A DNA stretch of 28,887 nucleotides from a virus: positions 1 to 28,887 of IMG/VR virus record IMGVR_UViG_3300021197_000219; one strand, 5' to 3'. How positions within the stretch are numbered: position 1 is the stretch's first letter; every line of letters begins with the position of its first letter. A program made the translations under genes and the position numbers. Positions 12,427 to 19,584 of this stretch are shown in pieces. Below the pieces are notes generated by a model, which did no database searches, was not told the DNA's origin, and was given only the letters and a program-made list of their open reading frames with translations.

Positions 12427-12487
12427 TGTCAATAACTAATTTATATATTACGAATATTTATTTATACGGAATATCATAGAAGGGTGG

Positions 12488-12607
12488 CATTTAAAGTGTT
12501 ACATTTAAAGTGTATTCTTATCTTTTTTGTAATACCATTTAAAATGTTACATATAAGTGTTATTTATTTATAACTATTTAGTAGTTTAGTGTAACACTTT
12601 AAGTGTT
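12488..12607. repeat. Iterated CATTTAAAGTGT / AAGTGT motif
   Basis: CATTTAAAGTGT occurs at 12488-12499 and again at 12502-12513, a 14-bp period. A variant CATTTAAAATGT follows at 12536-12547, then ACATATAAGTGTT at 12550-12562. The perfect inverted repeat AACACTT-T-AAGTGTT ends the series at 12593-12607. TGTTACAT also appears twice. Iteron-like clusters of this kind in a divergent spacer suit a replication-initiator or repressor binding array. Confidence 0.6.
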
Positions 12608-12697
12608 GTGTTGTGTTATACTTAGTTTTACACATTTACGAAACCATGTCAACCCCTAAAATATATTATGTTCAAATAAAGTGTAAATATGTCATCT

Positions 12698-12711
12698 TTT
12701 GTGATCACAAA
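12698..12711. promoter_or_regulatory. Perfect 14-bp palindrome TTTGTGATCACAAA
   Basis: A perfectly self-complementary 14-mer in the divergent spacer, a likely dimeric-protein binding site. It contains the CRP/FNR-like half-sites TGTGA and TCACA, but with no 6-bp spacer, so those regulators would not fit as such. It also contains a BclI-type TGATCA and a Dam-type GATC core. Confidence 0.5.
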
Positions 12712-12922
12712 TCTACCCAATCCCTGTGTGCATACGACTATATACACTGTGGTTAACACCCTATTTTCCTGATCTGTGTAGATATGTGTATATACTAACG
12801 CACTACCCCCCACTGCCCCCTGCCTGCTACCCTGCTTATCGTGTGGATTATGCGCTTTCTTCGCCCAAATATGCATGATAAGTGGCTCAATAGCTGTATT
12901 CTCTTAGAATAATGCAACAAAT

Positions 12923-13107
12923 TCAACTACTTAGTTGAGAGTGACAAGTGATATGCAATCAGTTGCCATACTATGGTATGTTTATTGTTGCAAGATTGCC
13001 ACACTAAGAGTGTGTTGCAAAGTCGATGCTTATTTTACCCTATCCCCACCGAGAAGGTGGCAGATGACATTACAGTGTCAGGCAAGGAAGGTGCGACACC
13101 GTGCCAC
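12923..13107. ncRNA. Candidate structured RNA (multi-hairpin, three-way junction)
   Basis: Consecutive helices can be drawn by eye. H1 is 12923-12928/12933-12938 (TCAACT/AGTTGA). H2 is 12955-12960/12994-12999 (GCAATC/GATTGC), extended by 12963-12966/12990-12993 with an AG bulge and capped by 12967-12971/12976-12980 (CATAC/GTATG). H3 is 13000-13005/13009-13014 (CACACT/AGTGTG). Then GTGGCA/TGCCAC (13057-13062/13102-13107) encloses GACAT/GTGTC (13066-13070/13075-13079) and GGTG/CACC (13090-13093/13097-13100), a closed three-way junction. CCACC/GGTGG (13046-13050/13056-13060) would compete with the closing helix. Strand and promoter are unknown; it could be an sRNA, a leader regulator or a structured origin. 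Confidence 0.4.
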
Positions 13108-13157
13108 ATAACGAGGCAACTTGACAACTCTAGCTATTGTTAATAGTTTATAAAGAT

Positions 13158-13200
13158 AATATTTAAGGATCTCATATTTATGTGAGAGATCTTAAATATT
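13158..13200. promoter_or_regulatory. Long hairpin before the first rightward gene
   Basis: Arms 13158-13173 and 13186-13200 pair over 15 bp (AATATTTAA/GATCTC against GAGATC/TTAAATATT) with one bulged G and a 12-nt loop. It lies 37 bp before the ATG at 13238. There is no downstream T run, so a simple intrinsic terminator is unlikely; attenuation, RNase III processing, mRNA protection or an operator are options. Confidence 0.55.
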
Positions 13201-13237
13201 CTCTTATATAAACAACAATAGATAGAAAGATAAAACA

Positions 13238-13900
13238 ATGAAAAACTCAACATCAACAAAACCACTTGGTACTCTTGAAACTGAAGGTCTAGCTTTAGCT
13301 AAGGCTTGGAGATCAAGAGATCGAAAAGATAAGAATCAATTCAGTGTTGACATCAAAGATGACGGTCAGTTTGACCCTAGTCAGAAAAGACCTAGTGGTC
13401 TTCTAGTCAGGACAGGTTTTATCATGTCTCAGATTAAGATTAACAACACCACTTTAGTATTAAGTGGTTTGAACAATCTTGACAGAAGAAGAAGAGCAGA
13501 ATGTCACTGGTTCTATGAGAACCACAAAGACTGTTTAGAGTTTATCTCTAAATCTAAGAAAGGTTATACTAACCTTAGTGCCTTACAGAAAGCTATGGCT
13601 AAAGCCAACAAGCAATCAGAGATTGAGGATAAAGAGACTGATCCTAGCGAAGCTACTGATAGCGAAGCTACAACTAGCGAAGCTAAACAGTCCGACATCG
13701 GACAACTTCCAGTTACGAAGTATGATCTAGCCAAGGCAATCATGAAAACTTGTCAAGATAACGAAATAAATCCTTTGGATTTGATTGACATCATTTTGAT
13801 CAATGTTGAGAATCAACCTAAACAACCAAAGAATGTTGTTTCAATGGGAAGCCACAAAGTGGATTCAGGTTGGAAAACAGTAAAGCAAGCTAATGCTTGA
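13238..13900 (+). CDS. First gene of the rightward arm, unknown
   Basis: 220 aa, hydrophilic. The N-terminal 120 residues have a compact folded look (GLLVRTGFIMSQIKINNTTL, then LNNLDRRRRAECHWFYENH). Residues about 134-152 are an acidic linker with SEATD/SEATT/SEAKQ pseudo-repeats, followed by a helical C-terminal part (YDLAKAIMKTCQDNEINPLD). As first gene after the control region it is probably early-expressed, perhaps a takeover or regulatory factor. The linker codes at DNA level for three 15-bp repeats and one of the GTCCGA palindromes. Only a weak AGAAAG precedes the ATG. Family not recognised. Confidence 0.75.
   Translation: MKNSTSTKPLGTLETEGLALAKAWRSRDRKDKNQFSVDIKDDGQFDPSQKRPSGLLVRTGFIMSQIKINNTTLVLSGLNNLDRRRRAECHWFYENHKDCLEFISKSKKGYTNLSALQKAMAKANKQSEIEDKETDPSEATDSEATTSEAKQSDIGQLPVTKYDLAKAIMKTCQDNEINPLDLIDIILINVENQPKQPKNVVSMGSHKVDSGWKTVKQANA
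13645..13685 (+). repeat. Three tandem 15-bp repeats (TAGCGAAGCTA core)
   Basis: TAGCGAAGCTA occurs at 13645, 13660 and 13675, exactly 15 bp apart, encoding Ser-Glu-Ala plus two variable residues each time. The core is itself a small inverted repeat (TAGC-GAA-GCTA). It lies five bases before the first GTCCGACATCGGAC palindrome. Confidence 0.8.
13690..13703. repeat. Palindromic element copy 1 (GTCCGACATCGGAC)
   Basis: Six-bp perfect arms (GTCCGA/TCGGAC) around a 2-bp centre, inside the first rightward gene, where it codes SDIGQ with flanking bases. Identical 14-mer to copies 2 and 3. Confidence 0.85.
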
Positions 13901-18481: not shown

Positions 18482-18671
18482 GTGGGCGGCAGAGGAATGG
18501 GATTCACCCAAGGAAGACACAAAGCGTATACTTGTACGCATCAAGCGTGTAGCTGACATCATAAAGTCAGACGCAGTGTGCAAGTCACGCCCTACTGTTA
18601 GAGATAAGGCAGAGGAGATGTTAACACTGATAGATTTATTGGAGAGTAAACTAGATGAATACAAATGGTAG
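18474..18671 (+). CDS. Unknown 65-aa protein upstream of integrase
   Basis: ATG 18474 is chosen over an in-frame upstream ATG because GGAG lies 8 nt before it. Reads MAKWAAEEWDSPKEDTKRIL, then a helical body (DKAEEMLTLIDLLESKLDEY). It overlaps the integrase start by 17 bp, so translation may be coupled. Position next to an integrase would fit an excisionase or regulator, but no winged-helix or HTH pattern is clear. Confidence 0.62.
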   Translation: MAKWAAEEWDSPKEDTKRILVRIKRVADIIKSDAVCKSRPTVRDKAEEMLTLIDLLESKLDEYKW

Positions 18672-19584
18672 AAATAAAATTGTAAGTATAGATGATCTGA
18701 TAAAACTGTACTATAATTCCAATGACTATGACATGCTTAGAGATACAACTAAGAGTGACTACAAGTATTTCCTTGGAGTTGTAGCTGATTCGATAGGCAA
18801 GGACAAGTTCAAAGGCTTTACATCTAGGAAAGCTAAGTGGGCATATGAGGATTGGGTCAGGCGTGGTGTCAGCTTCGCTAATCATGTAGCTACCTGTGCA
18901 TCTAGAGTGTTTAACTATGCCATAGAGATGGAGTATGCCATGCAGAATCCTTTCACCAGTATCAAGCGTAAGCCTGAGATCAAACGTAAGGTAGTCTGGA
19001 AGCACGAGGATGTACTCAAGTTTCTTGACGTGGCATACTCAGACTTTACGACACGTAACATTGGGTTAATTATACAGATGACATACGAATGGTGTCAGAG
19101 AATAGGAGACATGCGTACTCTACGTTGGTCTAACCTAGACTTTGAGAATAAACTACTGACACTGGAGCAGAGTAAGCGTAGAGCAGAGGTATTTCTACCC
19201 ATATCAGATGACCTGATGGCAATGTTACAGGATCAGCATGAAGACTTTGGCTTTCAAGAGTATGTAGCTCCTCATATACTGCCTGTACATGGCGTATATT
19301 ATCCTTATGCGATGCAAAGGTTCTCGAAAAATGGAAGGGCTGTCATGCGTAAAGCTGGGCTGTCTGAGAGCCTACGATTAATGGACTTACGTAGGACAGG
19401 AGTAGTACAGATGGTGGATAAGGGTGTACCTTTACCTAATATTATGTCAGTGACAGGACATGCTAATGTTGCATCTGTGAAACCCTATTTAAAAAATACG
19501 TACACTTCTGCAAATGAAGCCTTGACACGTAGAAATGTATCTGTACAATCGAACACTGTGAGTAACATTGAAAGTGATACATAA
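18655..19584 (+). CDS. int: Tyrosine recombinase (integrase) with altered His box
   Basis: 309 aa. It would catalyse site-specific integration/excision between attP and attB. N-terminal SAM-like core-binding domain (about 10-105, with ANHVATCASRVFNYAIE helix) and C-terminal catalytic domain. Catalytic set: Arg149 (CQRIGDMRTLRW), Lys174, Arg246 (DLRRTG), His269 (TGHAN) and Tyr278 (PYL). The HxxR box reads M-D-L-R: the usual His is Met243. His-to-other substitution occurs in some active family members, but can reduce activity. No attP core or tRNA-like sequence was found nearby. Overlaps the primase gene by TAATG, an unusual place for an integrase, embedded in the replication operon. Confidence 0.92.
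   Translation: MNTNGRNKIVSIDDLIKLYYNSNDYDMLRDTTKSDYKYFLGVVADSIGKDKFKGFTSRKAKWAYEDWVRRGVSFANHVATCASRVFNYAIEMEYAMQNPFTSIKRKPEIKRKVVWKHEDVLKFLDVAYSDFTTRNIGLIIQMTYEWCQRIGDMRTLRWSNLDFENKLLTLEQSKRRAEVFLPISDDLMAMLQDQHEDFGFQEYVAPHILPVHGVYYPYAMQRFSKNGRAVMRKAGLSESLRLMDLRRTGVVQMVDKGVPLPNIMSVTGHANVASVKPYLKNTYTSANEALTRRNVSVQSNTVSNIESDT

Follow-up and report, generated by a model that had tools for sequence, protein, structure and literature searches.

What does the spacer between the divergent gene blocks of an HMO-2011-type phage do? The window analyzed here is a single virus record of 28,887 bases from a marine HMO-2011-type podovirus, in which a leftward gene block including portal and a rightward block including integrase, helicase and polymerase are separated by a spacer at 12433-13237. 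The right part of this spacer (12923-13107) had been folded by hand into a multi-hairpin element with a three-way junction and a possible two-state RNA switch, and a structured replication origin was among the guesses made about its role. That guess has become the leading reading: we tentatively regard the whole spacer as a composite cis-acting control region whose most likely job would be to start phage DNA replication. Full-text literature searches found no account of this spacer. The features identified are collected in Table 1.

Table 1. Features of the spacer and of the genes to its right, in window coordinates
Feature	Position	Strand	Remarks
AT-rich stretch with iteron-like repeats (ACACTTTAAGTGT type)	12501-12606		repeats at 12501-12513, 12549-12560 and 12594-12606
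Block A	12748-12830	+	TGTGGTTAACAC, then ATCTGTGT ending at 12779, then a C-rich third part
Block A, third part (consensus GTGGCCCCTGCCYACCC)	12813-12830	+	window position read by eye
IHF-like site WATCAANNNNTTR	12921-12933	+	one mismatch; overlaps the first hairpin originally predicted (12923-12938)
Block B, near-palindrome AAGTGATATGCAATCAGTT	12946-12964	+	inverted half-sites, variable centre
hp1, CATAC-TATG-GTATG	12967-12980	+	directly 3' of block B
hp2, CACACT-AAG-AGTGTG	13000-13014	+	conserved, covarying stem
Block C	13022-13048	+	GCCGATGCAT-like box, then TACCCTATCCCC; from motif search right of B
Hairpin CCACC-GAGAA-GGTGG	13046-13060	+	originally predicted competing helix; conservation in 5 sequences only
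Long leader hairpin, 41 bp	13129-13226	+	within the 5' UTR of gp1
gp1	13238-13900	+	first rightward gene, 220 aa; all-helical model
Tyrosine integrase (PF00589)	18655-19584	+	profile match; short N-terminus

We compared the window spacer with those of related viruses. Four viral loci aligned closely to it, L030, L002 and L008 over most of the spacer and L006 partly, and the same blocks were common to the window and the isolates CRP-1, CRP-345 and HMO-2011. In L006 the resemblance to the window stops at about 13031, right of hp2, as if recombination had occurred within the spacer. A pattern search of viral contigs for block A yielded at least 119 stretches; with the earlier loci added, at least 130 of 227 records matched, at least 122 of these were unique and at least 112 had enough sequence rightward. 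Bases inside the search pattern are conserved by construction, and the other features reported here lie outside it. Block A opens with TGTGGTTAA, presumably one base off the DnaA box consensus; the preceding T was found in 98 of 112 loci, and GTGGTTAACAC itself was the search key. The third part of the block kept a fixed offset of +33 in all but 8 of the 109 loci (of 116) in which it was placed, i.e. in 101. Where block A has its C-run (12806-12811 in the window, also in L030, L002 and L008), many relatives have a run of G instead, as inversion of a short piece would produce.

Among 11 isolates block A was clear in nine and weak in CRP-3 and HTVC033P, where the motif scored 14.5 and 9.7, respectively, and the best score elsewhere in the same genomes was 14.6 and 15.6. 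The third part was the top match of the scanned stretch in CRP-2, CRP-603, CRP-207, CRP-235 and CRP-212, with a weaker match in CRP-738 (scores of 29.4 to 17.4 over the six), and the sequence ahead of it looked related by eye, also in CRP-3 and HTVC033P. Since the third part or related sequence occurs in these other isolates, the presence of block A seems not to be tied to the integrase of subgroup I.

The family consensus of block B, AACTGTTATGGTATCAGTT, scored above shuffles in most of at least 112 loci, and 94 of 112 scored high enough to enter the spacing measurements. Among the 11 isolates block B exceeded shuffles only in CRP-1, CRP-345 and HMO-2011; CRP-212 was borderline among the eight others (P 0.0075). 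Distances between A and B clustered near 133, 144, 154, 163 and 175 bp, and the best period for 83 clusters, scanned from 7 to 16 bp, was 10.6 bp (R 0.63, Rayleigh p 4e-15). The same phase was obtained when the main mode was removed (p 7e-5); under the strictest clustering (32 clusters) the p-value was 9e-4, and 0.17 without the main mode. The window, at 166 bp, and a few other loci fell between the spacing groups. We also scored matches to the IHF consensus in the 60 nt left of block B. Of 90 loci, 24 had a site without mismatch and 61 a site with at most one, where shuffles gave 1.0 and 12.4, respectively, and the matches piled up exactly at -25 from B (30 of 90 loci). To the right of B, the block C motif started at +75 to +78 in 68 of 86 loci, and 10 of the 86 were under the score cut. 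Sequences resembling sigma-54 promoters and Fur boxes were seen right of B in L144 and L207 and in the spacers of L110 and L207. The spacing of A and B by whole helical turns is better explained by proteins assembling on double-stranded DNA than by an RNA switch.

How does the folded element fare by the same comparison? The energy of the originally predicted segment was lower than that of dinucleotide shuffles, modestly so as RNA (z -2.43 on the plus strand, with 1 of 200 shuffles as good, and z -2.89 on the minus strand, with none of 200). With DNA parameters the margin was wider (plus strand, z -4.21, none of 200). For 12900-13237 the z-score was -6.1, with much of the stability coming from the larger leader hairpin beyond the predicted segment. 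The full arrangement of helices proposed for the segment was absent from its minimum-energy folds. Its capping hairpin (hp1) and hp2 were conserved and covarying in relatives. The helix 12923/12938 was present too; L030 has a compensatory change in it, and so, judging from the alignment, does L006. The bulged long stem around hp1 (12955-12999) did not hold up, with 54% of cells paired in five sequences, although three of the ten pairs scored had been specified in the wrong register. In the helix that would close the junction (13057-13062/13102-13107) 76.7% of cells were paired. The competing CCACC/GGTGG helix was paired in 92% of cells, with L270 alone supplying both of its double changes; a two-state switch would call for conservation of both alternative helices, and the closing helix lost one pair in three of five sequences. 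Thus the original prediction was right about a structured, conserved, non-coding element, while its three-way junction and switch are not retained in relatives. The segment matched no Rfam family at the gathering score, a tRNA search of it found none, and RNAalifold predicted zero pairs on a 29-sequence alignment.

The two short hairpins were examined in 51 distinct segments. Fully paired stems of 5 bp or more were found in 31 (hp1) and 29 (hp2) of them, relative to 2.1 and 3.8 in single-base shuffles, and comprised 12 and 14 different stems, respectively. In the 29 sequences, a set picked for perfect hp1 that favours hp1 and not hp2, there were 47 double-change cells against 15.9 ± 3.9 expected, a number that none of 500 shuffles reached. 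Individual compensated pairs set the hp1 stems apart from one another, the pattern that a kept structure would give, and in near-perfect stems G-T accounted for only 1 of 3 and 1 of 13 single non-Watson-Crick pairs. Pairing is thus kept while the sequences turn over, and on this comparative evidence we consider hp1 and hp2 to be real hairpins; their covariation leaves a role in RNA open. In L126, L140, L195 and L199 hp1 is replaced, right of block B, by the palindrome TGTTTCACGTGAAACA, which we take to resemble the bacterial ParB site parS. The helical-phase spacing, the positioned IHF-like site and the little G-T wobble together suggest a nucleoprotein site on double-stranded DNA.

The strongest RNA structure here was a separate one, the long leader hairpin, which begins ~20 nt beyond the right border of the originally predicted segment and leaves 11 nt between its right end and the start codon of gp1. 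In the window (13128-13237) its z-score was -8.0, and the 110 nt before gp1 held a long hairpin with z below -2 in 21 of 25 loci (median z -5.6). When 20 of these 21 loci were aligned (L031 was left out), the median identity was 55% and the stems were 32-44 bp long; G-U made up 21 of their 774 pairs. RNAalifold gave no structure over all 20 sequences, and two 8-sequence subsets did fold, with 23 double-change cells versus 7.5 expected and 13 versus 3.7; loops shifting register probably account for the null results with this alignment and with the 29 sequences above. Rightward early transcripts would carry this hairpin before gp1, where its probable role is to shield the mRNA or to determine how it is processed. 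The gp1 protein itself had no well-supported Pfam or PHROG family, and its predicted model (mean pLDDT 75.8) had no fold match in the PDB.

We infer from the sites, their order and their helical-phase spacing that the repeats left of A, block A, the IHF-type bend and the dimer-type site B would be gathered by proteins into one looped complex on double-stranded DNA. Such a complex would start phage DNA replication, the adjacent AT-rich stretch could be opened, and the hp1 and hp2 palindromes, kept as hairpins, may act in the opened single strand. An origin appears the most likely job because iteron-like repeats, a DnaA-like box one base off and an openable AT-rich stretch occur together. In 117 loci the 400 nt left of A contained a mean of 2.0 iteron-like sites per locus, relative to 0.08 in shuffles, and 73 loci had at least two. 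The same 400 nt were 69.5% AT, compared with 60.1% for the loci, as an opening region would be, and the inverted repeats I1/I3 were also present in the AT-rich repeat stretch. That the replication genes sit rightward of the spacer counts in favour of an origin; that the element-bearing genomes all have a single integrase type counts against it. No cognate initiator protein was identified. In four subgroup III phages the GC-skew minimum lay near the gene-strand switch and not at A (3.4-4.7 kb apart); a skew origin at A, seemingly favoured by a short-flank count, was not favoured by a larger count and was rejected. We hold the replication reading tentatively since the repeats, AT content, DnaA-like and IHF-like sites and looping fit it while GC skew lends no support and gp1 has no fold match. 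In the divergent spacer of CRP-3, TGTGGATAAC occurs at L232:4835-4844, presumably a perfect DnaA box by consensus. Passages of PMC9038755 and PMC6918029 reported neither the replication start of HMO-2011-type phages nor the integration mode of subgroup I.

The main rival to a replication start is a phage attachment site (attP), in which the integrase would bind B as the core for recombination, with the IHF site and phased A forming one arm and C the other; we consider it rather unlikely. The predicted sites do suit it: B has inverted half-sites around a variable centre, as in a tyrosine-recombinase core, so that core, variable overlap and IHF bend all have candidates in the sequence, with the IHF-like site beside B and arm A helically phased. 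PF00589 was found in 27 of 32 records, the exceptions being HTVC033P and four contigs whose ends lie 0.3-7.7 kb to the right of A, and the integrase was present in 54 of 55 helicase loci; being nearly always there, it cannot tell attP from descent. Against this reading, block A also occurs in phages of another integrase type, possibly including the integrase-less HTVC033P, the integrase gene is 5.7 kb off, and by alignment the integrases of the window and HMO-2011 lack the N-terminal extension of the CRP-3 enzyme. A search of GTDB for prophages via the integrase gave two matches, neither with a junction, the contig of one close relative ending before the site, and we recognised no host-like sequence after B in ten loci inspected. 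Searching 385 alphaproteobacterial genomes for an attB pattern gave 42 sites in 35 genomes, only about twice the reversed control (about 22), which makes them ambiguous as candidates. Just two matches had a single mismatch; one, L244, reproduces the CRP-1 type of block B at the 3' terminus of an alphaproteobacterial gene that we take from its sequence to be ybeY-like, and may be due to chance. According to passages of PMC6918029, the integration site of CRP-1 was not identified and CRP-3 integrates at tRNA-Met. A tRNA 3' end lies beside the CRP-3 primase gene (L231:3155-3205, minus strand), away from block A, and is likely the attP core of CRP-3.

Could the hairpins act in RNA instead, as an early leader with an antitermination (nut/put-like) or stability function, the upstream DNA sites being promoter and operator? 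We regard this as unlikely. The covariation of hp1 and hp2, the purine-rich plus-strand loops of hp2 in most members and the RNA-like long leader hairpin at the gp1 start codon are in line with it; however, G-T pairs are scarce, fold energies favour DNA, the helical phasing of A and B finds no explanation in RNA, promoter prediction gave nothing above chance and Rfam no match. N4-like virion RNA polymerase promoters were rejected, as no RNA polymerase family was detected in the large HTVC033P proteins scanned. An initiation site of a new kind, in which the looped, IHF-bent A-B complex extrudes hp1 and hp2, read by shape and indifferent to sequence, and serves replication, integration and early transcription alike, seems highly doubtful. 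It is very improbable that terminase binds block A as a packaging start (pac/cos): HTVC033P does have an A-like stretch just upstream of terS, but terS is 3.1-3.9 kb from A in CRP-212, CRP-3, CRP-235 and CRP-738 (subgroup III), and contig ends near A were diffuse, not sharp. A physical genome end at A was rejected, the ends being spread over 0-1.4 kb. Equally poor are the chances of operators of a divergent early/late switch looped by a dimeric repressor, hp1 turnover being a change of operator specificity, since the divergent spacer and the other palindromes (e.g. parS-like) that stand for hp1 in some members are offset by hp1 stems that vary by single compensated pairs, like structure, and by the position of A outside the divergent spacer in subgroup III.

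The abstract of PMC9038755 describes HMO-2011-type phages as dominant in the ocean and broadly distributed there. With its few hundred bp the element is a well-delimited target for studying replication start and subgroup I integration, and the leader hairpin is a clear RNA candidate for testing. The spacers of CRP-1, CRP-345 and HMO-2011, whose records carry no feature annotation for the element, have A and B equally spaced as in the window and C-like boxes too; hp1 was found in CRP-1 and HMO-2011 while CRP-345 had no clean hp1, and the stem sequences of their hairpins differ from those of the window. Hairpins in the 5' UTR that stabilise phage early mRNAs or are RNase III sites are known, and the leader hairpin is similarly long and just 5' of the first early gene; it differs in its length of about 39 bp, its almost freely exchangeable sequence and the lack of an Rfam family. 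An attP of the lambda type has a tyrosine-recombinase core with IHF sites and arms. The spacer shares with it core-like inverted half-sites, a variable centre, an adjoining IHF-like site and a phased arm; unlike in lambda-type systems, the integrase gene is distant and without CRP-3's N-terminal extension, and A is also present where that integrase is absent. Iteron-type origins with IHF and DnaA sites are those of pSC101 and R6K. Like these, the spacer combines repeats and AT-rich DNA with a DnaA-like box and an IHF-like site within a few hundred bp; it differs in having no identified initiator gene and in adding block B, hp1/hp2 and a helically phased spacing.
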